From the NCBI GenBank assembly GCA_003220225.1, contig QHRU01000048.1, forward strand, positions 1 through 64,000: a stretch of 64,000 bases of DNA, read 5' to 3'. This DNA is from Candidatus Rokuibacteriota bacterium. GTDB lineage: Bacteria; Methylomirabilota; Methylomirabilia; Rokubacteriales; CSP1-6. Under the pieces are notes generated by a model. It was not told the origin of the DNA. It ran no database searches and saw only the letters and a list, made by a program, of their open reading frames with translations. Position numbers and translations under genes: made by a program. Positions 17,507-29,145 of this stretch are shown in pieces. Each line of letters begins with the position of its first letter. Position 1 is the stretch's first letter.

Positions 17507-18251
17507 CCCGACGCGCCGAGCGCTCCTGGCCGTGCTCGCCGTTGCGCTCGTCCCGGTGCGCGCCTCCCCCCAGCTCGACGAGCTGCTCAAGCAGCTGCCC
17601 CCGCTGCCCGGCGGCACCCAGCTGCCGTTCCCCCAAGGCGGCGCGCTCGGCGACGTGAAGATCGGCCAGGCGCTCAAGCAGGCGCTCCAGATCGGCATCG
17701 AGAACGCGGTCAAGCTGACGGGACGCACCGACGGCTACTTCAAGAACCAGACGATCAAGATCCTCATGCCGGAGAAGCTCAAGACGTTCGAGCGCGGGCT
17801 GCGCGCCGTCGGCTACGACCGCCAGGTGGACGACTTGATCTTGAAGATGAACCGCGCCGCCGAGCGCGCGGCGCCGGCGGCCAAGAAGATCTTCTGGGAC
17901 GCGATCGGCGAGATGACCATCGACGACGGCCGCCGGATCCTGAACGGCTCCGAGACGGCGGCCACCGACTACTTCAAGGACAAGACGACGAGCGAGCTGA
18001 CCGCCGCGTTCTCGCCCATCGTGCACCGCACGATGGGGGAGGTCGGCGTCACCAGGCAGTACCAGGACCTCTTCGGCCGCGCCCAGAGCATTCCCTTCCT
18101 GAGCCTGGAGGCCTTCGACCTCGATCGCTACGTCGTCGGCCGAGCCCTCGACGGCCTCTTCCACATGGTCGGTGACGAGGAAAAGAAGATCCGCGCCAAC
18201 CCCTCGGCGCGGGTCACCGACCTGCTGCGTGAGGTGTTCGGCCACCGCTGA
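17502..18251 (+). CDS. DUF4197 domain exported protein
   Basis: A 249-residue protein with a signal peptide (residues 1 to about 22: positive start, core ALLAVLAVALVPV, Ala-rich end). The DUF4197 body includes ALKQALQIGIENAV, FKNQTIKILMPEKL, and TDYFKDKTTSEL. The family is periplasmic and of unknown function. Oddly, the ATG lies inside the last copy of the upstream repeat (ACGATCGATGAG) and has no recognisable ribosome binding site. Its 3' end overlaps the converging membrane-protein gene by 38 bp. Confidence 0.8.
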   Translation: MSPTRRALLAVLAVALVPVRASPQLDELLKQLPPLPGGTQLPFPQGGALGDVKIGQALKQALQIGIENAVKLTGRTDGYFKNQTIKILMPEKLKTFERGLRAVGYDRQVDDLILKMNRAAERAAPAAKKIFWDAIGEMTIDDGRRILNGSETAATDYFKDKTTSELTAAFSPIVHRTMGEVGVTRQYQDLFGRAQSIPFLSLEAFDLDRYVVGRALDGLFHMVGDEEKKIRANPSARVTDLLREVFGHR

Positions 18252-18693
18252 CACCGCGTCGCCTCAGCGAGAGGCGAGATCCCGCGGCGCCGGCGCCCGC
18301 GTAGTAGCCGCCGAGGGTGAAGAGGTACGCGGCGAGCACCCAGTGGAATGCGATCGGGATCCCGTGCGTGCGCGAGATGAGCCAGCGGACCAGCATTGCG
18401 AGGGCGTAGACGTAGCTGAAGCCGCGGAGCGCGCGGCCGACCCGCCGCCGCGGCCGCGCCAAGAGCCCGGCGCCACGCCACACCTGCCAGTCGATCGTCA
18501 GCTGCACGGCCAGGATCAGGATCTGCACCGGCAACAAGACCGGATAAGGCAGGAGCCCCGAGTACCACGCGCCCATGGGCGGGAGCCACGAGACTCCCGC
18601 GAACGCGGCGAGCGCCTGCCCGGCGACCCGCGCGAAGAACAGCGCGGTGAGGAGGGTGAGCACGAGCGCGGTGCCGGAGGCGTCGCGTCTCAC
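18214..18693 (-). CDS. Small multi-pass membrane protein of the oxidase/GH3 operon
   Basis: A 159-residue protein with about four hydrophobic segments (ALVLTLLTALFFARVAG; YPVLLPVQILILAVQL; a third near FSYVYALAMLVRWLI; FHWVLAAYLFTLGGYYAG). I do not recognise the family. The GTG start (18691-18693) overlaps the GH3 stop in GTGA, so it is coupled to that gene and is the last member of the operon. The C-terminal 20 residues are polar and overlap the opposite-strand DUF4197 gene, which may mean the true 3' end is poorly constrained. A transporter or membrane anchor for the pathway product is only a guess. Confidence 0.6.
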   Translation of the reverse strand: MRRDASGTALVLTLLTALFFARVAGQALAAFAGVSWLPPMGAWYSGLLPYPVLLPVQILILAVQLTIDWQVWRGAGLLARPRRRVGRALRGFSYVYALAMLVRWLISRTHGIPIAFHWVLAAYLFTLGGYYAGAGAAGSRLSLRRRGVSGGRTPHAAGR

Positions 18694-20396
18694 GACGGGA
18701 CCTCGGCGGGCTCGTCGACGCACCGCACGACCTCGGCGCGGCTCGCGTCGTCCCATGCCGGCGCGATCGGACTCCACTTGTGCTGCGCCTCGCGGCGCCC
18801 GCGCGCGAAATCCGCGCGGCAGAGGCGCTCGGACCAGCCGGCGCGCATCACGAAGAGCCGCGGCCGCTGCAGACGGGCCGAGCCGCGCTTGCACGCGTAC
18901 TCCATGTTGACGTCGCCGAGGCCGTGGTCGAAGGCGGCCACGAAGTCGGCGAGGGCGCGCCCATCGGCGGCGGGCCGCGGCAGCTCGACGAGCAGGTCGT
19001 AGCGCGAGGTCTCCACGTCGGGGACGAGACGGAACTGCCAGACGCCCAGCCCGGTCGCGCGCTCGGCCGCACGCACGGCGTGGAGCACGTGATTGAGGTG
19101 CAGCTTCTCGCCCGTGATGTTCACCATGTCGCGGCCCTTGCGCACGAACGCGACTTTCGGCGTGCGCCGGTGGAATCCCTGGACCTCGACGATGTCGTTG
19201 AGGTCGTAGCGATAGAGTCCGTTGCCGCCCGTGACGATCACGTAGTAGCGCCGCCCGACCTCGAGCTCGTGAGCGAGCAGGGTGCGTGGCGTCGCCTCCT
19301 CGATCGCCTCCTCGGGGACGAACTCGAAGAAGTTGGCGTGCACGGCCAGCACGCCGGCCGCCGAGTGGTCGTCCACGGGAATCGTCAGGCGACCCTCGCT
19401 GGCCACGAGCCCCAGGTCGCGGCGCGCGACGCGCGGGCCGAAGTGGGCGTCGAGGTGGCGCGCCTGGATGCCGGCGCTGCCGCCGAGCCAGCACGCGACG
19501 AGCGAGAGGTCCGGCCAGCACTCACCGAGGACGAGCCGGCCGTGCCCCTCGACGACGCGCGCCAGCGCGGCGGCGCGCCGTGGATCCGGCGCGAGCCCGG
19601 CCGCGAGGGCCGCGCGGAGCTCGCCGGCGCTCACGCCCGCGTGAGTCGTCGGCTCGACGTGATCGACGCCGAGGGTGCCGTCGTGCACCGCGCGCACGAG
19701 GGCGGTGGCGCGGCGCGCCGCCGTGTCCGCGAGGCGGAGCAGCGTGCTCGGGTTCGGCATGCCGATCGACGAGATCGAGCGCGCGAGCGCCAGGCGCGCG
19801 GCGACGAAGTAGCGCGTCTCGTGGTCGCGGATCAGCGCGGCGGCGTACGGGACCGCGTGCCGCCGGCGGATCGGCCAGGGCAGGCGCTGGAACGTCAGCC
19901 CCGTCATCGCTCCGTACGGCAGGCCGCCCGGCGTCACCCCCTCGACGGCCGGACTCACCATCGCGAGCACGTGGCCATCCAGCATCGCGGGATGGTCGCG
20001 GAGCGCGTGCACGGTCCACAGCCGCATGAGCGCGGCCATCACGCCTGCCCACGACGCGGTCACCGGCACGAGCTTCGGCTCGCCGGTGGTGCCGCTGGTG
20101 GCGGTGAACATGAACGGCGTCTCCGCGGTCAGCACGCGCCGCTCGCCGGCCACGATGCGCGCGACCCACGGGCGGAACGCCTCGTAGTCGCCGATCGGCA
20201 CTCGCCGGGCGAACTCGGCGGGCGTCGCGCCGGCCGCGAAGGCGTGCTCGCGCCCGAAGGCCGTGTCGGCGTTGTCGCCGAGGAGCCGGCGCAGGACGCG
20301 CATCTGGGCGCTGACCGGGTGATCGGCGGCGGCTTCGAAGGCGCGCCGGTGGCGCCACTCGTGGGCGGCGATGGCGTAACGGAGCAGGCGTCCCAT
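18690..20396 (-). CDS. GH3 family acyl-adenylating enzyme
   Basis: A 568-residue protein of the GH3 (auxin-responsive) family of the ANL adenylating superfamily. The phosphate-binding motif FTATSGTTGEPKLVPV (about residues 96-111) and the nucleotide motif NGLYRYDLNDIVEV (about 405-418) are intact, followed by MVNITGEKLHLNH. Plant GH3 enzymes adenylate a carboxylate and join it to an amino acid; bacterial members are mostly uncharacterised. It sits one base after the enolase-superfamily gene and overlaps the membrane-protein gene, in an operon headed by a diiron oxidase. Amide-bond formation on an acid made by the upstream enzymes is a reasonable inference. Confidence 0.85.
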   Translation of the reverse strand: MGRLLRYAIAAHEWRHRRAFEAAADHPVSAQMRVLRRLLGDNADTAFGREHAFAAGATPAEFARRVPIGDYEAFRPWVARIVAGERRVLTAETPFMFTATSGTTGEPKLVPVTASWAGVMAALMRLWTVHALRDHPAMLDGHVLAMVSPAVEGVTPGGLPYGAMTGLTFQRLPWPIRRRHAVPYAAALIRDHETRYFVAARLALARSISSIGMPNPSTLLRLADTAARRATALVRAVHDGTLGVDHVEPTTHAGVSAGELRAALAAGLAPDPRRAAALARVVEGHGRLVLGECWPDLSLVACWLGGSAGIQARHLDAHFGPRVARRDLGLVASEGRLTIPVDDHSAAGVLAVHANFFEFVPEEAIEEATPRTLLAHELEVGRRYYVIVTGGNGLYRYDLNDIVEVQGFHRRTPKVAFVRKGRDMVNITGEKLHLNHVLHAVRAAERATGLGVWQFRLVPDVETSRYDLLVELPRPAADGRALADFVAAFDHGLGDVNMEYACKRGSARLQRPRLFVMRAGWSERLCRADFARGRREAQHKWSPIAPAWDDASRAEVVRCVDEPAEVPS

Positions 20397-20397
20397 G

Positions 20398-21540
20398 TCA
20401 TCCCTCCGTCGACAGCTCTCTGACCGTGATCGCGCGCCGGCGCAGGCGCTCCTCCACGACGCGGATGCCGAGGCCGGGGCCCGTCAGCAGCGGGGCCTCG
20501 CCCCGGTGGCCGAAGCGCACGCTCTCGACGCTGACGTCCTCTGCGAGCAGCAGCGTGCCGAACGACCCCTCGACGAAGGTGACCTCCGGCAGCGCGGCGG
20601 CGAGGTGGCGGCCGGCGGCGGAGAGGATGGCCGTCTCGCCCACCTGACTTCCCACCTGGACGCCGACACCTACCGCGCTCCCGCGCGCGGCGATGGCGAG
20701 CGAGCGGGCCAGGCCGCCGCACTTGGAGATGCGCACGTTGAAGAAGTCCGCCGCCTTGGCCTCGATCAGAGCGTCGGCGTCGGCCTCCGTCACCAGCGAC
20801 TCGTCCACCATCACGGGAACCGGGGTGGCCTGTCGCAGCCGGGCGAGGTCGTCGACGGGCCCGCGTGGTAACGGCTGCTCGACCGCCGCGATCCCCAGTG
20901 GCGCCACGGCGTCGAGGACGGCGACGGCGCGCTCGAACGTCCAGGCGCCATTGGCGTCCAGCCGCAGGGTGACGCCCGGGCCGAGCGCCTCGCGCACCGC
21001 CGTCACGCGGGCGACATCGTCGTCGAAGCCGACCTTGACCTTCACGTGGCGCATGCCAATGGCCCGCATCCGGCGCGCGTGCTGGACGGCGCGCTCGACC
21101 GATCCAGCGGTGACGACGCCGCTGTACGTCACCCGCGTCCGCCTCGGCGGCAACACGCTCGCCATCGGGCGGCCGACGCGGCGAAGCGCACAGTCGAGCA
21201 TGGCCAGCTCCAGCGCGGCGCGAGCGGCGTTCGGGGCGAGTGCCCCGGCCAGGTACGTCTCCGGTAGGAAGGTGGCGAGACCCGGGAGGTGACCGGCGGG
21301 CGGCAGGTCGCGACCGGCCACGCGCGGCCAGAGGTCACGGCCGAGATGCTCGAGCATCGTCTCGACCGTCTCGCCGGTGACGTAGGGGCGCGGCGCTCCC
21401 TCGCCGAAGCCCTCGGTCCCCGCGTCGTCGCGGACGCGCACGACGACGGAGTCGGACCAGCGCCGCTCGGTGGCGCTGTGGCTGAAGGCCTCGACGAACG
21501 GGATGCGGAGCGCGTAGAGCGTCGCACCGACGAGCCTCAT
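20398..21540 (-). CDS. Enolase-superfamily enzyme (muconate-lactonising subgroup)
   Basis: A 380-residue enzyme with an N-terminal capping domain and TIM barrel. Catalytic elements of the muconate-lactonising subgroup are visible: K-x-K in HVKVKVGF, metal ligands in LRLDANGAW, AAVEQPL and VMVDESL, and the opposite Lys in NVRISKCGG. The subgroup includes dipeptide epimerases, o-succinylbenzoate synthase and N-acylamino-acid racemases, so the reaction is probably epimerisation or dehydration via an enediolate. Its ATG overlaps the oxidase stop (ATGA). Neighbouring a GH3 ligase, an amino-acid- or dipeptide-type substrate is plausible but unproven. Confidence 0.8.
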   Translation of the reverse strand: MRLVGATLYALRIPFVEAFSHSATERRWSDSVVVRVRDDAGTEGFGEGAPRPYVTGETVETMLEHLGRDLWPRVAGRDLPPAGHLPGLATFLPETYLAGALAPNAARAALELAMLDCALRRVGRPMASVLPPRRTRVTYSGVVTAGSVERAVQHARRMRAIGMRHVKVKVGFDDDVARVTAVREALGPGVTLRLDANGAWTFERAVAVLDAVAPLGIAAVEQPLPRGPVDDLARLRQATPVPVMVDESLVTEADADALIEAKAADFFNVRISKCGGLARSLAIAARGSAVGVGVQVGSQVGETAILSAAGRHLAAALPEVTFVEGSFGTLLLAEDVSVESVRFGHRGEAPLLTGPGLGIRVVEERLRRRAITVRELSTEG

Positions 21541-22223
21541 CGCGGCGTCCCCGCCGCGGTCGCGTCGCGGAAGTAGCGCCGCGTGAACACGTTCTCGCGC
21601 AGCGTCATCTCGACGATCGTCAGCGCCTCGTCGTCGGTGAACTCGTAGTAGGCGGCGTACGCTCCGAGATCGGCCAGCCCCTGCTCGGCGTGGCGCACGT
21701 CCACCTCCGAGTGGTGGGTGAACCACTCGAGCGCCGGGGCCGCCAGCCCGCGGTGGGTCGCCAGCGCCCGGGCCATGCGGCCGGAGACCCGCGAGAGCAT
21801 GAACTCGAAGGCGACGATCTCGGTGAGCGCGGCCAGCCCGACCTCGCGCAACGCGCTGTAGAGCAGGGGCTCGGTGACTATCCGTCGAACGTCGTCCGCC
21901 GCCCGGGCCTCGACCTCCACCAGCCGGTGTCCGAGCCCGGCGGCCCGGAGCAGATCCTCCAGCAGCGCGGGGTGCGGGCGCTCCGACTCCGCTTCGAGGC
22001 CGAGCTCCTCGAGGAGATTTCCGAGGAGGTCGCGGGCCGCCGCGGGAGGCGCGAGCGCGTACAGGAAGGCCACGAGCTGCGGCGACTTCAGATGGGCGCG
22101 CGCCACGTTCTCGATGAAGGCGTCGTAGTCCCCGCAGCCCGCTTCCAGCGCCGCGAACTCCGGCGATCCGGTGAAGGCCTCGACCTGCCGTTCGAACAGC
22201 GCGCGGACCGTCTTCGTCTCCAT
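21537..22223 (-). CDS. Haem-oxygenase-like diiron oxidase (CADD/TenA-like fold)
   Basis: A 228-residue all-helical protein starting at the ATG at 22223, which has a strong ribosome binding site (AGGAGGA). Six likely metal ligands fall at the spacings of Chlamydia CADD: E77, H84, E140, then H171, D175, H178 in THHSEVDVRHAE. This family (HDOs) includes CADD, UndA, BesC and SznF, which oxidise or fragment small carboxylic or amino acids with O2. It is the first gene of an operon with an enolase-family enzyme, GH3 and a membrane protein, and has a sigma-54-like sequence upstream. The substrate is unknown. Confidence 0.75.
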   Translation of the reverse strand: METKTVRALFERQVEAFTGSPEFAALEAGCGDYDAFIENVARAHLKSPQLVAFLYALAPPAAARDLLGNLLEELGLEAESERPHPALLEDLLRAAGLGHRLVEVEARAADDVRRIVTEPLLYSALREVGLAALTEIVAFEFMLSRVSGRMARALATHRGLAAPALEWFTHHSEVDVRHAEQGLADLGAYAAYYEFTDDEALTIVEMTLRENVFTRRYFRDATAAGTPR

Positions 22224-22259: not shown

Positions 22260-22278
22260 GTCCACGTGACGTGCCAGA
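22260..22278 (-). promoter_or_regulatory. Candidate sigma-54 promoter of the oxidase operon
   Basis: Reading the minus strand, CTGGCACGTCACGTGGAC has a perfect -24 element (TGGCAC). At the correct spacing it has a degenerate -12 element (GTGGA against TTGCA, matching T, G and A). Transcription would start near 22250, giving a leader of about 27 bases with the AGGAGG site in it. The divergent gene encodes a sigma-54 activator. The mismatch at the conserved C of -12 weakens the call. Confidence 0.4.
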
Positions 22279-22348
22279 GGTTGGAGGCCGTAAAATCAAG
22301 GCTTTTCCGAGAATGCAGTCGGGAAGCTGGACATTCGAGGCCCATCCT

Positions 22349-22374
22349 CTGTACATTCACTGTCGGGTGTACAT
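22349..22374. promoter_or_regulatory. Paired TGTACAT motifs, possible activator binding site
   Basis: TGTACAT occurs twice (22350-22356 and 22368-22374) with an 18-base period, directly before the sigma-54 activator start and 70-125 bases upstream of the candidate oxidase-operon promoter. Each copy contains the palindrome TGTACA. Position and spacing fit an upstream activating sequence or an autoregulatory site. No experimental counterpart is known to me. Confidence 0.35.
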
Positions 22375-22377
22375 CAG

Positions 22378-23919
22378 ATGTCCGGGGTGACCTTCCTAGC
22401 CGGCGGCGATCGCGCCCTCGCCGAGGCGATCTCGCGCCTGGCCTACTGCAACCCGTTCCTGCCGGAGCGGATCGAGTGCGAGCGCGCGGCGCTGGGCCCC
22501 GCCTTCGTGGCCGGCGGCACCCTCTGGCACGCCACCGGCGAGCCCGATCCGATGCCGAACGTGGCCGCGCTCGGCAAGCTCTCGGAGGCGCTGGCCGGGC
22601 GTCTGGCCGCGCGGCTCACCGAGGGCGTGAGGCCGAGCGCCGAGGACCTTCAGCTCTACGAGGACGTGGTCGTCTACCTGCTGTTCAGCCGCTACGAGGA
22701 AGAGCTCTATCGGCTGCTCGACGACCGCCGCGTGGCGACCGCCCCCGTGGGCTTCTACCGGAAATTCCGCCAGGACGTCGAGCGCTTCCTGCAGATTCCG
22801 CGGGCCACGCTGCTGGCCGATCGCGACGTGCCCCACCTGCTGGCCAGCTACTTCCAGATCCGCCGGGCGTTCCACCACATCTTCCGCAACATCATTGGTA
22901 ACTCGGCGTCGATCGTCCGACTGCGCGCCGCCGTCTGGCAGTCCATCTTCACGCGCGACATGCGGCGCTATCGGCGCTCGCTCTATCAGCGGCTGGGCGA
23001 CATCGCCACGCTCATCTGCGGGCCGTCGGGCACGGGCAAGGAACTGGTGGCGCACGCGATCGGCCTGGCGCGCTACATCCCGTTCGATCCCGAGCGCCAG
23101 GCGTTCGCCGAGGACGCCGCCGGCGCGTTCTACACCCTGAACCCCTCGGCGCTCTCGCCGACGCTGATCGAGTCGGAGCTGTTCGGCCACCGCCGCGGCG
23201 CGTTCACGGGCGCCGTGCAGGACCGCACCGGCTGGCTGGAGGTCTGCCCGCCGCTGGGCGCGGTGTTCCTCGACGAGATCGGCGAGCTCGACGCGGCCGT
23301 CCAGGTGAAGCTGCTGCGCGTGCTCCAGACGCGGAGCTTCCAGCGACTCGGCGACACGCGTGACCGGCGCTTTTCGGGCAAGATCATCGCCGCCACCAAC
23401 CGCGACCTGCCGCGAGAGATGGAGGCCGGCCGCTTCCGCGAGGACTTCTACTACCGGCTCTGCTCGGACCTCATCGTCACGCCCCCGCTCGCCGAGCAAT
23501 TGCGCGACGCGCCCGCCGAGCGGGGCGCCCTGGTGCGCTTCATCGCCCGGCGGGTTGCGGGCGACGCCGAGGCGGAGAGCCTCGCGCAGGAAACCGAAGG
23601 CTGGATCGACGCGCACCTGGGCGCCGGATACCGCTGGCCGGGCAACGTTCGTGAGCTGGAGCAGTGCGTGCGCAACGTGATGATCCGCGGCGAGTATCGG
23701 CCGCCGCGCGCGGGCAACCCGTCGGCGCGCCGGCGCATCGCCGACGAGGTGATGGTCGGCACGCTCAGCGCCGAGGAGGTCCTACGGCGCTACTGCACGC
23801 TGGTCTACGCGGACACCGGCAGCTACCAGGAGACCGGCCGCAGATTGGGCCTCGATCGCCGGACGGTACGCGAGAAGGTCGACCCCACTCTTCTCGATGA
23901 GTTGCGGCGTGATAGCTGA
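22378..23919 (+). CDS. Sigma-54-dependent transcriptional activator with unknown sensor region
   Basis: A 513-residue bacterial enhancer-binding protein. Walker A is GPSGTGKE (residues 215-222), the sigma-54 contact loop GAFTGA is at 274-279 within ESELFGHRRGAFTGAV, and Walker B is VFLDEIGE (296-303). The conserved WPGNVRELEQCVRN follows, then a C-terminal Fis-type helix-turn-helix (GSYQETGRRLGLDRRTVREKV). The first 200 residues are not a receiver, GAF or PAS domain that I can see; they are helical, with a short aromatic and basic stretch before the AAA domain. It is divergent from the oxidase operon and precedes the subtilase gene, so both are candidate targets. Confidence 0.85.
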   Translation: MSGVTFLAGGDRALAEAISRLAYCNPFLPERIECERAALGPAFVAGGTLWHATGEPDPMPNVAALGKLSEALAGRLAARLTEGVRPSAEDLQLYEDVVVYLLFSRYEEELYRLLDDRRVATAPVGFYRKFRQDVERFLQIPRATLLADRDVPHLLASYFQIRRAFHHIFRNIIGNSASIVRLRAAVWQSIFTRDMRRYRRSLYQRLGDIATLICGPSGTGKELVAHAIGLARYIPFDPERQAFAEDAAGAFYTLNPSALSPTLIESELFGHRRGAFTGAVQDRTGWLEVCPPLGAVFLDEIGELDAAVQVKLLRVLQTRSFQRLGDTRDRRFSGKIIAATNRDLPREMEAGRFREDFYYRLCSDLIVTPPLAEQLRDAPAERGALVRFIARRVAGDAEAESLAQETEGWIDAHLGAGYRWPGNVRELEQCVRNVMIRGEYRPPRAGNPSARRRIADEVMVGTLSAEEVLRRYCTLVYADTGSYQETGRRLGLDRRTVREKVDPTLLDELRRDS

Positions 23920-24243
23920 GTCTCGAATTTAGCTTCGTTTCGCCGTTCGCTCCTCTGCGCGGCGCCTGCTCCAGGCTCCTCAGGCCGATTCCGGGCCTCG
24001 GCGACTGACGATTCCCGTCAGGCGTGGACAGATTGGACCGACGAATCTGGCATTGCGGAAGAGGGGGTTCGCACCGTAACCCAATGATCCGGCAGAGCGT
24101 AGCGGCTGTGGCATCCGCTCTGCATCTCCGAGCGTCGTCATGTGTCGTCTGCCTGTGTCTTCAACGGGTCCCTACTGCCGCGGACGCGCCTCCGCGCACT
24201 CGAACGGCTCGGTACAGCCGTCATTCGTGTTGCGGAGGCCGCA
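23920..24243. other. 324-base non-coding region upstream of the subtilase gene
   Basis: No convincing gene is present; open frames here lack ribosome binding sites. Two short inverted repeats follow the activator gene: AGGCC/GGCCT (23982-23998) and CTGACG/CGTCAG (24005-24021, 5-base loop). Neither has a T-tract, so they are weak terminator candidates. A sigma-54-like promoter lies at 24109-24124. The GGAGG at 24233-24238 serves the subtilase ATG at 24244. Base composition is visibly less GC-rich than the flanking genes. Confidence 0.6.
24109..24124 (+). promoter_or_regulatory. Candidate sigma-54 promoter of the subtilase gene
   Basis: The sequence TGGCATCCGCTCTGCA aligns with the sigma-54 consensus TGGCAC-N5-TTGCA. 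It keeps both invariant dinucleotides (GG at -24, GC at -12) at the correct 10-base separation and matches 9 of the 11 specified bases. A start near 24136 would give a leader of about 108 bases. It lies immediately downstream of a sigma-54 activator gene on the same strand. Confidence 0.45.
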
Positions 24244-27200
24244 ATGGGGCGCCACACCCGACTCGTAGCCGTCCTGATCATCCTGATCGCTCTCGCGCTG
24301 ATCCCGGGGGGGACATCGCTGGCCGGGCGTCGTGACGACGATCGCCGAGGCGCCGCCGCCAAGCTCGAGGAAAAATCAGAGGCCTGGCGGCAGGCGAAAT
24401 CAGAGGACTCGGACGACGACGACAAGGGCCCGTGGGTCAACGGCGTGTCACCGAAAGTTCGCAAGCGCGTCGCCGGCGGCGACCGCGCGCGTGTCCTCGT
24501 TTCGCTGCGGCTGCCGGGCCGCGGTCACGTTCCCGAAGGCCGCCTGACCCACGCGGCCGCGGCCCTGCAGCGCTCCGACATCAAGCAGGTCGGCGGCCAG
24601 CTGATGTCGCGGCTGCGCAAGGCCAACTATCGCATCGTGCACCGATACGACTACGTGCCGCTCATCGCGCTCGAGGTCGACGCCGACGCGCTCGCCGGCC
24701 TCGAAGGCTCGTCGCTGTGGGTGGACCGCGTCTTCGATGACGCGATCAAGCGGCCCATCCTCGCCGAGAGCGTGCCGCTCATCGGCGCCGATCGCGCGTG
24801 GGGTCGCGGGTTCGACGGCAGCGGTACGGTCGTCGCGGTGCTGGACACGGGCGTGGATTCCACGCACCCGTTCCTCCTCGGCAAGGTGGTCGAGGAAGCC
24901 TGCTACTCGAGCATGCTGGCCAAGCACAGCACGACGTTCTGCCCCAACGGCGCCGAGGAGCAGGTCGGGCCTGGAGCGGCGGTGCCCTGTCCGCTCGACG
25001 CGCAGGGTTGCTTCCACGGCACGCATGTCGCGGGTATCGCGGCCGGCGACGGCGCCACCGCCGGCGTGACGTTCTCGGGCGTGGCTCCGGGCGCCCAGCT
25101 CATGGCCGTGCAGGTGTTTTCCAAGTTCATCTCCGTATCCGACTGCGGGCCGTTCAACACGCCGTGCGTCGGCGCGTACACCTCGGACCTCATCGCGGGC
25201 CTCGAGCGCGTGTACGCCGTGCATGGCACCCGTAACATCGCGTCCGTCAACATGAGCCTCGGCGGCGGCTCGTTCAGTGCGTACTGCGACGCCGAGCCGG
25301 AGAAGGCGATCATCGACACGCTGCGCTCGGCCGGGATCGCCACGGTGGTTGCGTCAGGCAACGACGGCTCGCCGACCGCGCTGTCGTCGCCGGCCTGTAT
25401 CTCGTCCGCCGTCAGCGTCGGATCCACCACGAAGTCGGACGCCGTGTCGTCCTTCTCGAACGTCGCGCCGTTCATGTCGCTGTTCGCCCCGGGCGAGGAC
25501 ATCCTCTCGTCGGTCACCGGCGGAGGCTTCGCCATGCTGAGCGGAACGTCCATGGCGACGCCGCACGTGGCCGGCTCCTGGGCGATCTTGAAGCAGGCGG
25601 CGCCGGCGGCCACGGTGGATCAGACGCTCGCCGCGCTGCAGTCGACGGGCGTGCCCATCACCGACACGCGGAGCGGGACGCCGGTCACCCGACCGCGCAT
25701 CCGCGTCGACCTGGCGCTGAACCAGCTGGACCCGCCGACGCTGACGGTGGCGGCGGTGACACCCGGCCAGGGGAAGACCGGGACGACGGTTTCGGTGACG
25801 ATCGACGGTACCGGCTTCGTGACGGGCGCCGGTGTGAACGCGGGCGCGGGGATCACGGTGAGCAACGTCGCCGTCCTGTCCGCGACGCGGCTGACGGCGC
25901 GCTTCGCGATCGCCGCCGGCGCGACGCTCGGCGGGCGCAACGTGAAGGTCACGATCCCGAGCGAGATGGCGACGCTGAACAACGCCTTCACCGTGGTGCC
26001 GGCGGTGACGCTCAACCTGGCCTACAACGGCAAGCTGCGTGACCGCGTCGGTGGGGGCGATACCGCCCGAACGCCGGACGGCGCCCTCGACGGGACGTTG
26101 ACGCTGACGCTGAACGCGACCGACGGCCGCACGATCACCGCGCTGCGCCTGCAGAATGCGAGCGGCGGCGTGTGGGACACGACGGCGCCGAACGCCGCGT
26201 GGCTGCTGGGCGTGGCCGCCGCGCTGGATAGCCCGCTGCTCAACGACGCCACGACCATGGGCGTGAACACGACGTTGACCGACGGCGGAACCCTGCGCCT
26301 GTTCGCCTCGGATTATGGCAACGGGCTCGGCTTCGCAGTCGGGCAGCAGCTGACGGTGACCGCGACGTTGTCGGACGGCACGTCGGTGCAGGCGACGACG
26401 ACGGTGAGCAGCACGACGCCGACCGTGACCGCGGTCACGCCGAATCAGGGGACGTCGGGCTCCGCGGTGTCGGTGACGATCGACGGCAGCGGGTTCGTCA
26501 ACGGCGCCGCTGTCAGCGCGGGCGTCGGGATCACGGTGAATGGCGTCGTCTTCGTGTCGTCGACGCGGTTGACGGCGACGTTCACGATCGCCAGCGACGC
26601 GGGGGGCGGCGCGCGCGACGTGACGGTGACGAGCCCCGGTGGCACCGGCGGGACGCTCGCCAACGCGTTCACGGTGACGACGCCGCAGACCGCCAGGCTG
26701 TCCCTCGTCTACAACGGCAAGCTACGGGACAGGGTGGGAGGCGGTGACACGGCCCGGGCAGCCGATGGCGCGGCCGACGCGACGCTGACCCTGACGCTGA
26801 GTGCGGTCGGGGGGCGCACGGTAACGGCGCTGCAGCTTTCGAACGGGATCGGCGGCACGTGGGACACCACCGCGCCGAATGCCGCCTGGCTCCTCGGCGT
26901 GGCGCTCTCGCTGGACGGGGCGCTGCTGAACAACCCGACGACGATGGCCGTGAACCAGGCGGTGGCCGATGGCGGCAGCCTGCTGCTGTTCGCGTCGGAC
27001 TACGGTGGGGGTCAGGGATTCGCCAACGGTACGACGCTGACGGTCACCGCGACGTTTTCGGATGGAACCTCCGCGCAGGCCGTGGCGACGGCGACCGCTG
27101 CCGTCGTGGTGGGCGCGGTGACGCCCAACCAGGGGACGACGGGCACGACGGTGCCGGTGACGATCGACGGCAGCGGCTTCGTCCTCGGGGCGACGGTGAG

Positions 27201-29145
27201 CGCGGGCGCGGGTATCACCGTGAGCAACGTCACGTTTGTCTCCTCGGCCCGACTGACGGCATCGTTCGCGATCGACGGTGCAGCGACTGGAGGACCGCGA
27301 GCGGTCACTGTGACCAACCCGAACGGCGGCGGCGGAACGCTGGCCAACGGGTTCACGGTGAACGTGCCGGTGCCGGCCACGGTGACGCTGGCCTACAACG
27401 GCAAGCTGCGCGACAAGGTCGGCGGGGGTGACACCTTCCTCGGCGGGGATGGCGCGGCCGACGCGACCATGACCCTGACGCTGAGCGCGGCCGGTGGGCG
27501 GACGGTGACGGCGCTGCAGCTTTCGAACGGGATCGGCGGGACGTGGGACACGACCACGCCGAACGCCGCCTGGGTGCTGGGCGTGGCGCCCTCGCTGGAC
27601 GGCGCGCTGCTCAACAACGCGACGACGATGGCGGTGAATGCGACGGTGGCCGATGGCGGCAGCCTGACGCTGTTCGCGTCGGACTACAACGGCGGCATGG
27701 GATTCGCGCCCGGCAGGACGCTGACGGTGACCGCGACGTTCTCCGATGGGTCGTCGGCCCAGGCGGTGACGACGGTGACCAACACCGCCGTCACGGTGAG
27801 CGCGGTGACGCCCAGCCAGGGGACGATGGGCACGACGGTGGCGGTGACCATCGACGGCGGTGGCTTCGTGAGCGGAGCGATGGTGAGCGCGGGGGCGGGC
27901 ATCACCGTGAGCAACGTCATGTTCGTGTCCTCGGCCCGACTGACCGCATCGTTCGCGATCGCCAGTGGTGCCATGAGCGGGCCGCGGGACGTGACGGTGA
28001 CGACCCCGGGCAGTGGCGGAGGAGCGCTGACCAACGGCTTCACCGTGAACCTGCCGGCGGCGGTGACGCTGGCCTACAACGGCAAGCTGCGCGACAAGGT
28101 CGGCGGGGGTGACACCTTCCTCGGTGGGGACGGTGCGGCCGACGCGACCATGACCCTGACGCTGAGCGCGGCCGGCGGGCGGACCGTGACGGCCCTGCAG
28201 CTTTCGAACGGGATCGGGGGGACGTGGGACACGACCGCGCCGAACGCCGCCTGGGTGCTCGGCGTGGCGCCCTCGCTGGACGGGGCGCTGCTGAACAATG
28301 CGACGACGATGGCGGTGAATGCGGCCGTGGCCGATGGCGGCAGCCTGACGCTGTTCGCGTCGGACTACAACGGGGGCATGGGATTCGCGCCGGGCAGGAC
28401 GCTGACGGTGACTGCGACGTTCTCCGATGGGTCGGCGGCCCAGGCCGTGACGACCGTGACCAGCAGTGTCGTCACGGTGAGCGCGGTGACCCCCAACCAG
28501 GGGACGACGGGCGCGACGGTGGCGGTGACGATCGACGGCAGCGGATTCGTGAGCGGAGCGAGGGTGAGCGCGGGGGCGGACATCACCGTGAGCTACGTCG
28601 TGTGGGTGTCCTCGACCCGACTGATTGCATCGTTCGCGATCGCCGGCGGTGCCACGAGCGGGCCGCGGGACGTGACGGTGACGAACCCGGACACCGGCGG
28701 AGGAACGCTGACCGGCGGATTCACGGTGAACTCGCCGGTGACGCTGACGCTGGTCTACAACGGCAAGCTGCGCGACACGGTCGGCGGAGGTGACACTGCC
28801 CTCGCTCCGGATGGCGCGGCCGACGCGACGATCACGCTGACGCTGAACGCGGCGGGGGGCCGCAGCGTGACGGCGGTCCAACTGGTGAACGGGGTCGGCG
28901 GAGTCTGGGACACGATCGCGCCGAACGCCTCCTGGGTGCTGGGCGTGGCGCTCTCGCTGAACGGGGCGCTGCTGAACGACCCGACGACGATGGCGGTGAC
29001 CACCACGGTGGCCGACGGCGGCAGCCTGACGCTGTTCGCGTCGGACTACCTCGGGGGCGTGGGTTTCGCGCCGGGCAGGAACCTGACGGTCACCGCCACG
29101 TTCTCCGACGGCACCTCCGCCGTGGGCACCGTCACCACGCCATAG
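24244..29145 (+). CDS. Secreted subtilisin-family (S8) protease with five large tandem repeats
   Basis: A 1633-residue exported serine protease. The ATG at 24244 follows GGAGG. Residues 1 to about 28 form a signal peptide (core VAVLIILIALALI), followed by an Asp/Lys-rich stretch and a probable I9-like propeptide. The S8 catalytic triad is complete: D201 (AVLDTGVDSTH), H258 (FHGTHVAGIAAG) and S436 (SGTSMATPHVAG). From residue 500 to the end there are five repeats of 227-229 residues, each an IPT/TIG-like domain (VTPNQGTTGTTV...TIDGSGFV) plus an unrecognised domain beginning YNGKLRD. There is no LPXTG, autotransporter barrel or other anchor. It may be sigma-54 controlled. Confidence 0.85.
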   Translation: MGRHTRLVAVLIILIALALIPGGTSLAGRRDDDRRGAAAKLEEKSEAWRQAKSEDSDDDDKGPWVNGVSPKVRKRVAGGDRARVLVSLRLPGRGHVPEGRLTHAAAALQRSDIKQVGGQLMSRLRKANYRIVHRYDYVPLIALEVDADALAGLEGSSLWVDRVFDDAIKRPILAESVPLIGADRAWGRGFDGSGTVVAVLDTGVDSTHPFLLGKVVEEACYSSMLAKHSTTFCPNGAEEQVGPGAAVPCPLDAQGCFHGTHVAGIAAGDGATAGVTFSGVAPGAQLMAVQVFSKFISVSDCGPFNTPCVGAYTSDLIAGLERVYAVHGTRNIASVNMSLGGGSFSAYCDAEPEKAIIDTLRSAGIATVVASGNDGSPTALSSPACISSAVSVGSTTKSDAVSSFSNVAPFMSLFAPGEDILSSVTGGGFAMLSGTSMATPHVAGSWAILKQAAPAATVDQTLAALQSTGVPITDTRSGTPVTRPRIRVDLALNQLDPPTLTVAAVTPGQGKTGTTVSVTIDGTGFVTGAGVNAGAGITVSNVAVLSATRLTARFAIAAGATLGGRNVKVTIPSEMATLNNAFTVVPAVTLNLAYNGKLRDRVGGGDTARTPDGALDGTLTLTLNATDGRTITALRLQNASGGVWDTTAPNAAWLLGVAAALDSPLLNDATTMGVNTTLTDGGTLRLFASDYGNGLGFAVGQQLTVTATLSDGTSVQATTTVSSTTPTVTAVTPNQGTSGSAVSVTIDGSGFVNGAAVSAGVGITVNGVVFVSSTRLTATFTIASDAGGGARDVTVTSPGGTGGTLANAFTVTTPQTARLSLVYNGKLRDRVGGGDTARAADGAADATLTLTLSAVGGRTVTALQLSNGIGGTWDTTAPNAAWLLGVALSLDGALLNNPTTMAVNQAVADGGSLLLFASDYGGGQGFANGTTLTVTATFSDGTSAQAVATATAAVVVGAVTPNQGTTGTTVPVTIDGSGFVLGATVSAGAGITVSNVTFVSSARLTASFAIDGAATGGPRAVTVTNPNGGGGTLANGFTVNVPVPATVTLAYNGKLRDKVGGGDTFLGGDGAADATMTLTLSAAGGRTVTALQLSNGIGGTWDTTTPNAAWVLGVAPSLDGALLNNATTMAVNATVADGGSLTLFASDYNGGMGFAPGRTLTVTATFSDGSSAQAVTTVTNTAVTVSAVTPSQGTMGTTVAVTIDGGGFVSGAMVSAGAGITVSNVMFVSSARLTASFAIASGAMSGPRDVTVTTPGSGGGALTNGFTVNLPAAVTLAYNGKLRDKVGGGDTFLGGDGAADATMTLTLSAAGGRTVTALQLSNGIGGTWDTTAPNAAWVLGVAPSLDGALLNNATTMAVNAAVADGGSLTLFASDYNGGMGFAPGRTLTVTATFSDGSAAQAVTTVTSSVVTVSAVTPNQGTTGATVAVTIDGSGFVSGARVSAGADITVSYVVWVSSTRLIASFAIAGGATSGPRDVTVTNPDTGGGTLTGGFTVNSPVTLTLVYNGKLRDTVGGGDTALAPDGAADATITLTLNAAGGRSVTAVQLVNGVGGVWDTIAPNASWVLGVALSLNGALLNDPTTMAVTTTVADGGSLTLFASDYLGGVGFAPGRNLTVTATFSDGTSAVGTVTTP
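25741..29139 (+). repeat. Five tandem coding repeats of 681-687 bp in the subtilase gene
   Basis: The tyrosine codon of the YNGKLRD motif recurs at 26023, 26710, 27394, 28075 and 28756, giving periods of 687, 684, 681 and 681 bp. Units 3 and 4 are almost identical in DNA over long stretches (same YNGKLRDKVGGGDTFLGGDG), while units 1, 2 and 5 have diverged. This points to recent duplication or gene conversion between the middle units. Confidence 0.9.

Follow-up and report, generated by a model that had tools for sequence, protein, structure and literature searches.

An operon of four reverse-strand genes in contig QHRU01000048.1 of a Candidatus Rokuibacteriota bacterium, within the 64,000-nucleotide stretch analysed here (the window), carries three enzyme genes that are inherited together in distantly related bacteria. 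They encode a putative haem-oxygenase-like diiron enzyme (HDO), an enolase-superfamily enzyme (ENO) and a GH3-type acyl-adenylate-forming amide synthetase (GH3); the fourth gene encodes a small membrane protein (MEM). Comparison of genomes strongly supports the view that HDO, ENO and GH3 form one functional unit and, since it is inherited together across such distances, the trio very probably makes an amide or lipid molecule. Our preferred, tentative reading is a sigma-54-controlled pathway in which an N-acyl amino acid would be made by GH3, racemised by ENO and oxidised with O2 by HDO.

The operon and its conservation

The window belongs to a genome of about 6.0 Mb from the Rokubacteria lineage of Methylomirabilota. 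The closest named relatives of the locus are the Candidatus Rokuibacteriota metagenome-assembled genomes (MAGs) AR22 and AR8. HDO (21537-22223, minus strand, 228 amino acids) starts with an ATG codon and has AGGAGG just upstream. It is followed on the same strand by ENO (20398-21540, 380 amino acids; muconate-lactonising/N-acylamino-acid-racemase-type), GH3 (18690-20396, 568 amino acids) and MEM (18214-18693, GTG start, 159 amino acids, a four-helix protein). The open reading frames and their junctions are as the preliminary description of this DNA had given them: an ATGA overlap between HDO and ENO, a 1-base gap between ENO and GH3, and a GTGA overlap between GH3 and MEM. In comparisons with two relatives the nonsynonymous substitution rate (dN) is well below the synonymous rate (dS) in all four genes, with dN/dS around 0.17-0.30 for HDO, ENO and GH3 and 0.36-0.45 for MEM. 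The four genes are therefore real and under purifying selection, and the operon itself is confirmed.

Two phyla were covered systematically, with 95 genomes of Methylomirabilota and 379 of the deltaproteobacterial phylum, perhaps Myxococcota. Rokubacteria share the gene order HDO-ENO-GH3, with identities of about 70-80%; at 45-50% identity it recurs in three genomes of the deltaproteobacterial phylum, two of them uncultured 'delta proteobacterium' MAGs (loci L015, L060+L066 and L062). The HDO family profile found members in 5 of the 95 Methylomirabilota and 6 of the 379 deltaproteobacterial-phylum genomes. The corresponding GH3 clade (above 690 bits, the next best sequence scoring 431) occurs in the identical five and six genomes, and is thus patchy in Methylomirabilota (5/95). 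ENO is present in all 11: it was detected by tblastn in the five Rokubacteria, by profile in G095, G096, G138, G214 and G344, and in G233 as a truncated piece at the end of a contig. An enolase match in G433, next to a MenD-like gene, was rejected as an ENO, since it appears to be the menaquinone enzyme MenC.

Physical linkage alone does not account for this co-occurrence, because it extends to three genomes (G344, G233 and G214) whose trio genes are divided between contigs. This argues that the trio serves one pathway. If the genomes were independent, identical genome sets would arise by chance with probabilities of 2.5e-13 and 1.7e-8, figures that relatedness and linkage make far too small. 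The 11 trio GH3 proteins form a single clade (support 100/100). Second-tier GH3 proteins of the deltaproteobacterial phylum fall outside it and have varied neighbours, and ENO-GH3 pairs without an HDO of the window's type are found in other GH3 lineages (L075 and L071). That the genes are co-expressed as a biosynthetic unit had been put forward from the window alone; the gene order, kept within Rokubacteria and across phyla, and the co-inheritance in 11 genomes agree with it and show its conservation in other genomes.

The three enzymes

HDO belongs to the Pfam family Haem_oxygenas_2 (PF14518; E=1.4e-17, 64.5 bits against a cut-off of 28.9). When its AlphaFold2 model (pLDDT 85) was searched with Foldseek, CADD chains came first (E=1.6e-5), followed by PqqC, HrmI and TenA. 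Six metal ligands had been proposed for this protein. Five of them (H84, E140, H171, D175 and H178) do not vary among the 11 relatives; the sixth, E77, was probably misassigned. Position 77 is E or D across relatives and its spacing to H84 shifts in L062, whereas E72 and E73 are invariant in all 11. In alignment, E73 moreover falls on the glutamate of the ELG stretch in FlcD, a protein in which E181/H191 is a crystallographic iron-ligand pair (PMC11363339). Because of this invariance and alignment, E73 is probably the first ligand; an ungapped profile alignment to CADD, for its part, sets CADD E81 opposite position 77 and so speaks for E77. The six candidate ligands that result are all invariant and CADD outranks TenA structurally, which upholds the proposed HDO with a predicted dimetal site and led to the rejection of a TenA identity.

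With CADD/NePabS, UndA, BesC, SznF, HrmI and FlcD the protein shares a seven-helix fold and the E-H-E-H-D-H ligand set, CADD being the best structural match. Relative to the known PF14518 enzymes, it nevertheless stands in a clade of its own at about 20% identity, and its operon partners are new. Unlike CADD, it has no sacrificial lysine: K152 of CADD aligns with M150, a position occupied by M, I, V or F in the 11 relatives and never by K. This, together with a score of 25.9 for TIGR04305 (CADD) against a cut-off of 200, led to the rejection of a CADD identity as well. Of more than 10,000 HDO sequences roughly a dozen have an assigned function, and the compounds that these enzymes oxidise are mostly fatty or amino acids (PMC13108848).

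ENO matches both MR_MLE domains of Pfam (C-terminal 2.1e-51, N-terminal 3.4e-5). Its K167-x-K169 and K273 bases and its D195/E221/D246 metal ligands are invariant in 10/10 sequences. Matches in the PDB were 4m0x, 2p88 and 1jpm, the second of which (2p88/2p8b) we take to be an N-succinyl-Arg/Lys racemase. The KxK motif, the second lysine, the D/E/D ligands and a similar length are common to N-succinyl- and N-acylamino acid racemases, dipeptide epimerases and muconate cycloisomerases (the muconate-lactonising enzyme, or MLE, subgroup). ENO differs from them in that it scores far below every NCBIfam equivalog cut-off, the best resemblance, there and in the PDB, being to muconate/chloromuconate cycloisomerase, and in its family-specific stretches QVGETAILSA and EGSFG. 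The D-x-D of dipeptide epimerases, on the eighth strand, is replaced: E324-G-S326 stands opposite D-F-D of 1jpm. Enolase-superfamily enzymes take the alpha-proton from a carboxylate, and N-succinylamino acid racemases employ a lysine pair for this (PMC8142540).

All three GH3 domains score above the Pfam cut-offs (N 5e-55, M 1.6e-21, C 7.7e-9). The nucleotide motifs TSGTTGEPK, ASEG and GLYRYDLND, which have equivalents in all clade members, match those given for OlsH and plant GH3 proteins (PMC12493201), in keeping with the earlier suggestion of an acid-adenylating, amide-forming enzyme. The structure matches are plant GH3 proteins, among them GH3.12. The closest functional precedent is the bacterial GH3 OlsH of Singulisphaera acidiphila, which joins fatty acids to ornithine to give N-acyl-ornithine (PMC12493201). 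Both GH3 proteins carry all nucleotide motifs and are encoded in small operons, that of OlsH together with lipid-modifying genes. The window's GH3, however, belongs to a different clade and has HDO and an enolase as partners instead of OlsG and OlsI. Its score of 83 bits against the cut-off of 620 for the OlsH model (NF052613) led to the rejection of equivalence with that enzyme. Another bacterial GH3, 35% identical to the window's, is encoded in a natural-product cluster on a plasmid of Streptomyces sp. SGAir0924 (L109:1-12383), with a P450, an aminotransferase, an LLM oxidoreductase and thrS. That setting is a polyketide cluster, presumably of the borrelidin type (BorL, thrS), and has neither HDO nor enolase. 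A plasmid search for named hosts returned distant GH3 proteins only and no HDO.

Regulatory sequences upstream of HDO

A divergent gene (22378-23919, plus strand) encodes a sigma-54 activator, an AAA+ enhancer-binding protein of 513 amino acids (Sigma54_activat 3e-45). It contains the GAFTGA motif, and its N-terminal 190 or so amino acids gave no match to a Pfam domain. A homologue occupies the same position in three other Rokubacteria loci (L017, L018 and L029), and the window's genome also encodes sigma-54 itself. A sigma-54-like promoter, TGGCAC-N5-GTGG, lies at 22262-22276 on the minus strand, 53 bases upstream of the HDO start codon, and TGGCAC-N5-GTG(A/G) is found 40-53 bases before the HDO ATG in 5/5 Rokubacteria loci. 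Compared with the standard TGGCAC-N5-TTGC, the -24 element is perfect and conserved, whereas the -12 element is atypical, reading GTGA or GTGG. This is the single match in the window, with 0.23 expected, which is mildly unusual.

Two direct repeats of the form ATGT(A/C)(C/T)A, exactly 22 bp apart, are located between the activator gene and HDO in all five Rokubacteria loci. In the window they are ATGTACAG (22349-22356) and ATGTCCAG (22327-22334), both on the minus strand, and such a pair is expected 0.00 times by chance. They are probable activator sites. A third repeat-like site, ATGTACAC (22367-22374, minus strand), is seen in the window only. The conserved divergent activator, the spaced repeats and the -24-like promoter are additions to the preliminary description. 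Downstream of the activator, positions 24142-29145 hold an open reading frame of 1667 amino acids that is subtilase-like and continues into several near-identical repeat units.

MEM and neighbouring genes

The MEM model (pLDDT 81) consists of four long helices and found no fold match in the PDB, nor does the protein have a Pfam family. Among the trio loci MEM accompanies the enzymes in Rokubacteria only, complete in three genomes and partial in one; the fifth locus, L029, ends inside GH3. None of the deltaproteobacterial-phylum trio loci has it, and a homologue, 40% identical, adjoins a GH3-ENO pair in G240 (L071). By these comparisons MEM is a lineage-specific extra, its place being taken in the deltaproteobacterial phylum by acyltransferase, P450, exporter and methyltransferase genes. 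The export or anchoring that had been ascribed to this last gene is not borne out by its distribution or by its lack of fold and family matches, and was rejected. In L018 (10842-12092) no stop codon separates MEM from the lipoprotein-like open reading frame that follows in the same frame, through either a fusion or a sequencing error.

In the deltaproteobacterial phylum, the pathway genes have other neighbours. An acyltransferase of the CAT/2-oxoacid-dehydrogenase type stands beside them in all six genomes, and a cytochrome P450 near them in four (L015, L062, L092 and L016). Methyltransferases of the ICMT/PEMT type are also adjacent, as are transporters of the MMPL (L091-L093) and MFS (L015, L016, L062) families. 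As an example, the HDO gene is adjoined by a methyltransferase, an MMPL exporter and a CAT-like acyltransferase in L093:2225-8118, in L091:1-6894 and, with a P450 as well, in L092:2669-8564.

Related arrangements were also seen. L071:5241-9388 is an FA_hydroxylase-GH3-ENO-MEM-like operon, in which a different presumed diiron oxygenase family accompanies the GH3-ENO pair. In G233 a DUF3050 gene (L063:2035-3027; Pfam 1.4e-80, with a weak Haem_oxygenas_2 match) directly follows ENO-GH3, the orthologous HDO being on another contig. Clusters in L106:4830-10172 and L075:3762-11561 combine an L-lysine 6-transaminase, an adenylating enzyme and an ENO relative, and appear to be another ENO/GH3-type pathway. 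The L106 transaminase scores above the TIGR03251 cut-off and is accompanied by an SDR and a carrier protein; L075 has a GH3, and its transaminase was judged by eye.

Proposed pathway and alternatives

From the genes, catalytic residues, gene order, co-inheritance and regulatory sites observed above we infer substrates, step order and product class: a dedicated pathway, with all three enzymes obligatory, in which GH3 would build an amide or aminolipid and HDO and ENO would be its unexpected partners. GH3 would adenylate its carboxylic substrate, most likely a fatty acid, and couple an amino acid to it, giving an N-acyl amino acid. An N-acyl amino acid is a natural type of substrate for a two-lysine racemase, so that GH3 followed by ENO makes the simplest scheme. 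With its two-lysine machinery ENO would take off the alpha-proton and put it back, so that the opposite enantiomer, or an epimer, results. HDO, with O2 and a dinuclear iron or Fe/Mn site, would oxidise either of the two building blocks (amino acid or fatty chain) or the amide formed from them, by desaturation, N-oxygenation or oxidative decarboxylation, before or after the other two steps. The MMPL, ICMT/PEMT and FA_hydroxylase neighbours suggest that the product is probably lipid-like.

Several points weigh against this scheme. The OlsH model fits the GH3 poorly, and GH3 proteins act on aromatic acids too. ENO may instead work as a dehydratase or a cycloisomerase, with E-G-S where dipeptide epimerases have D-x-D. 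The genomes are related, so that their co-occurrence counts are not independent events; the searches scored the best few candidates per genome, and the MAGs are incomplete. Lastly, the acyltransferase was not found in the five Rokubacteria genomes, a search that had no positive control among them.

The resemblance of ENO to muconate cycloisomerases, the presence of GH3.12, which acts on 4-substituted benzoates, among the GH3 structure matches, and the nearby P450s would together fit an aromatic or cyclic amide. ENO would then be a dehydratase or cycloisomerase (OSBS/MLE-like), or HDO would cleave or rearrange the precursor, and GH3 would couple the resulting aromatic or cyclic acid to an amino acid, as GH3.12 does with benzoates. 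This is unlikely, given the low equivalog scores of ENO and its G325, which stands opposite the glutamate in the CELFGP motif of chloromuconate cycloisomerase. Neither ring-cleavage nor aromatic pathway genes adjoin the operon, and the neighbours listed above point to lipids.

Less probable is an acyloxyacyl amino-lipid of the OlsH/OlsI kind, in which GH3 would make a lyso-aminolipid, MEM or the CAT-like acyltransferase would O-acylate it, and HDO and ENO would modify the head group. The OlsH precedent, the adjacent acyltransferase of the deltaproteobacterial-phylum loci and a PEMT-like methyltransferase that parallels OlsG speak for it. Against it stand the sub-cut-off OlsH score, the missing acyltransferase in Rokubacteria, and the Rokubacteria loci themselves, where neither an OlsI-type alpha/beta hydrolase nor OlsG was seen.

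Many sigma-54 activators control catabolic operons. The trio might thus oxidise, racemise and conjugate an environmental acid that induces it through the activator, and its patchy distribution would suit such a role. We consider a catabolic or detoxifying operon doubtful, since GH3 consumes ATP in building an amide, the genes near the trio in the deltaproteobacterial phylum encode exporters rather than importers or dehydrogenases, and in Rokubacteria the operon has no recurrent catabolic neighbours. That HDO is a CADD-like para-aminobenzoate synthase whose product GH3 conjugates, for example with glutamate, is highly improbable: CADD is its best structural and sequence match and GH3.12 would provide for the substrate, but the lysine and the TIGR04305 score are wanting and ENO would have no role.

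Implications

Each enzyme belongs to a known superfamily and, by its scores, lies outside the named equivalogs; their combination is new. In a literature search we found no paper joining the HDO, ENO and GH3 families, as had been surmised before. Possibly, though we say so with hesitation, this is the first case in which an HDO, an enolase-superfamily racemase and a GH3 would cooperate, giving a new class of bacterial specialised lipid or amide, an oxidised D-configured N-acyl amino acid common to Rokubacteria and a deltaproteobacterial lineage and exported in the latter by MMPL or MFS transporters. What is known of GH3 chemistry in bacteria comes largely from a single recent case, OlsH. Three soluble enzymes, always inherited together and with partners that can be tested, form a tractable system. 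Its study could reveal a new HDO reaction and a natural product of Rokubacteria, of which we know of no cultured member, and could give an orphan clade of the enolase superfamily a physiological role.

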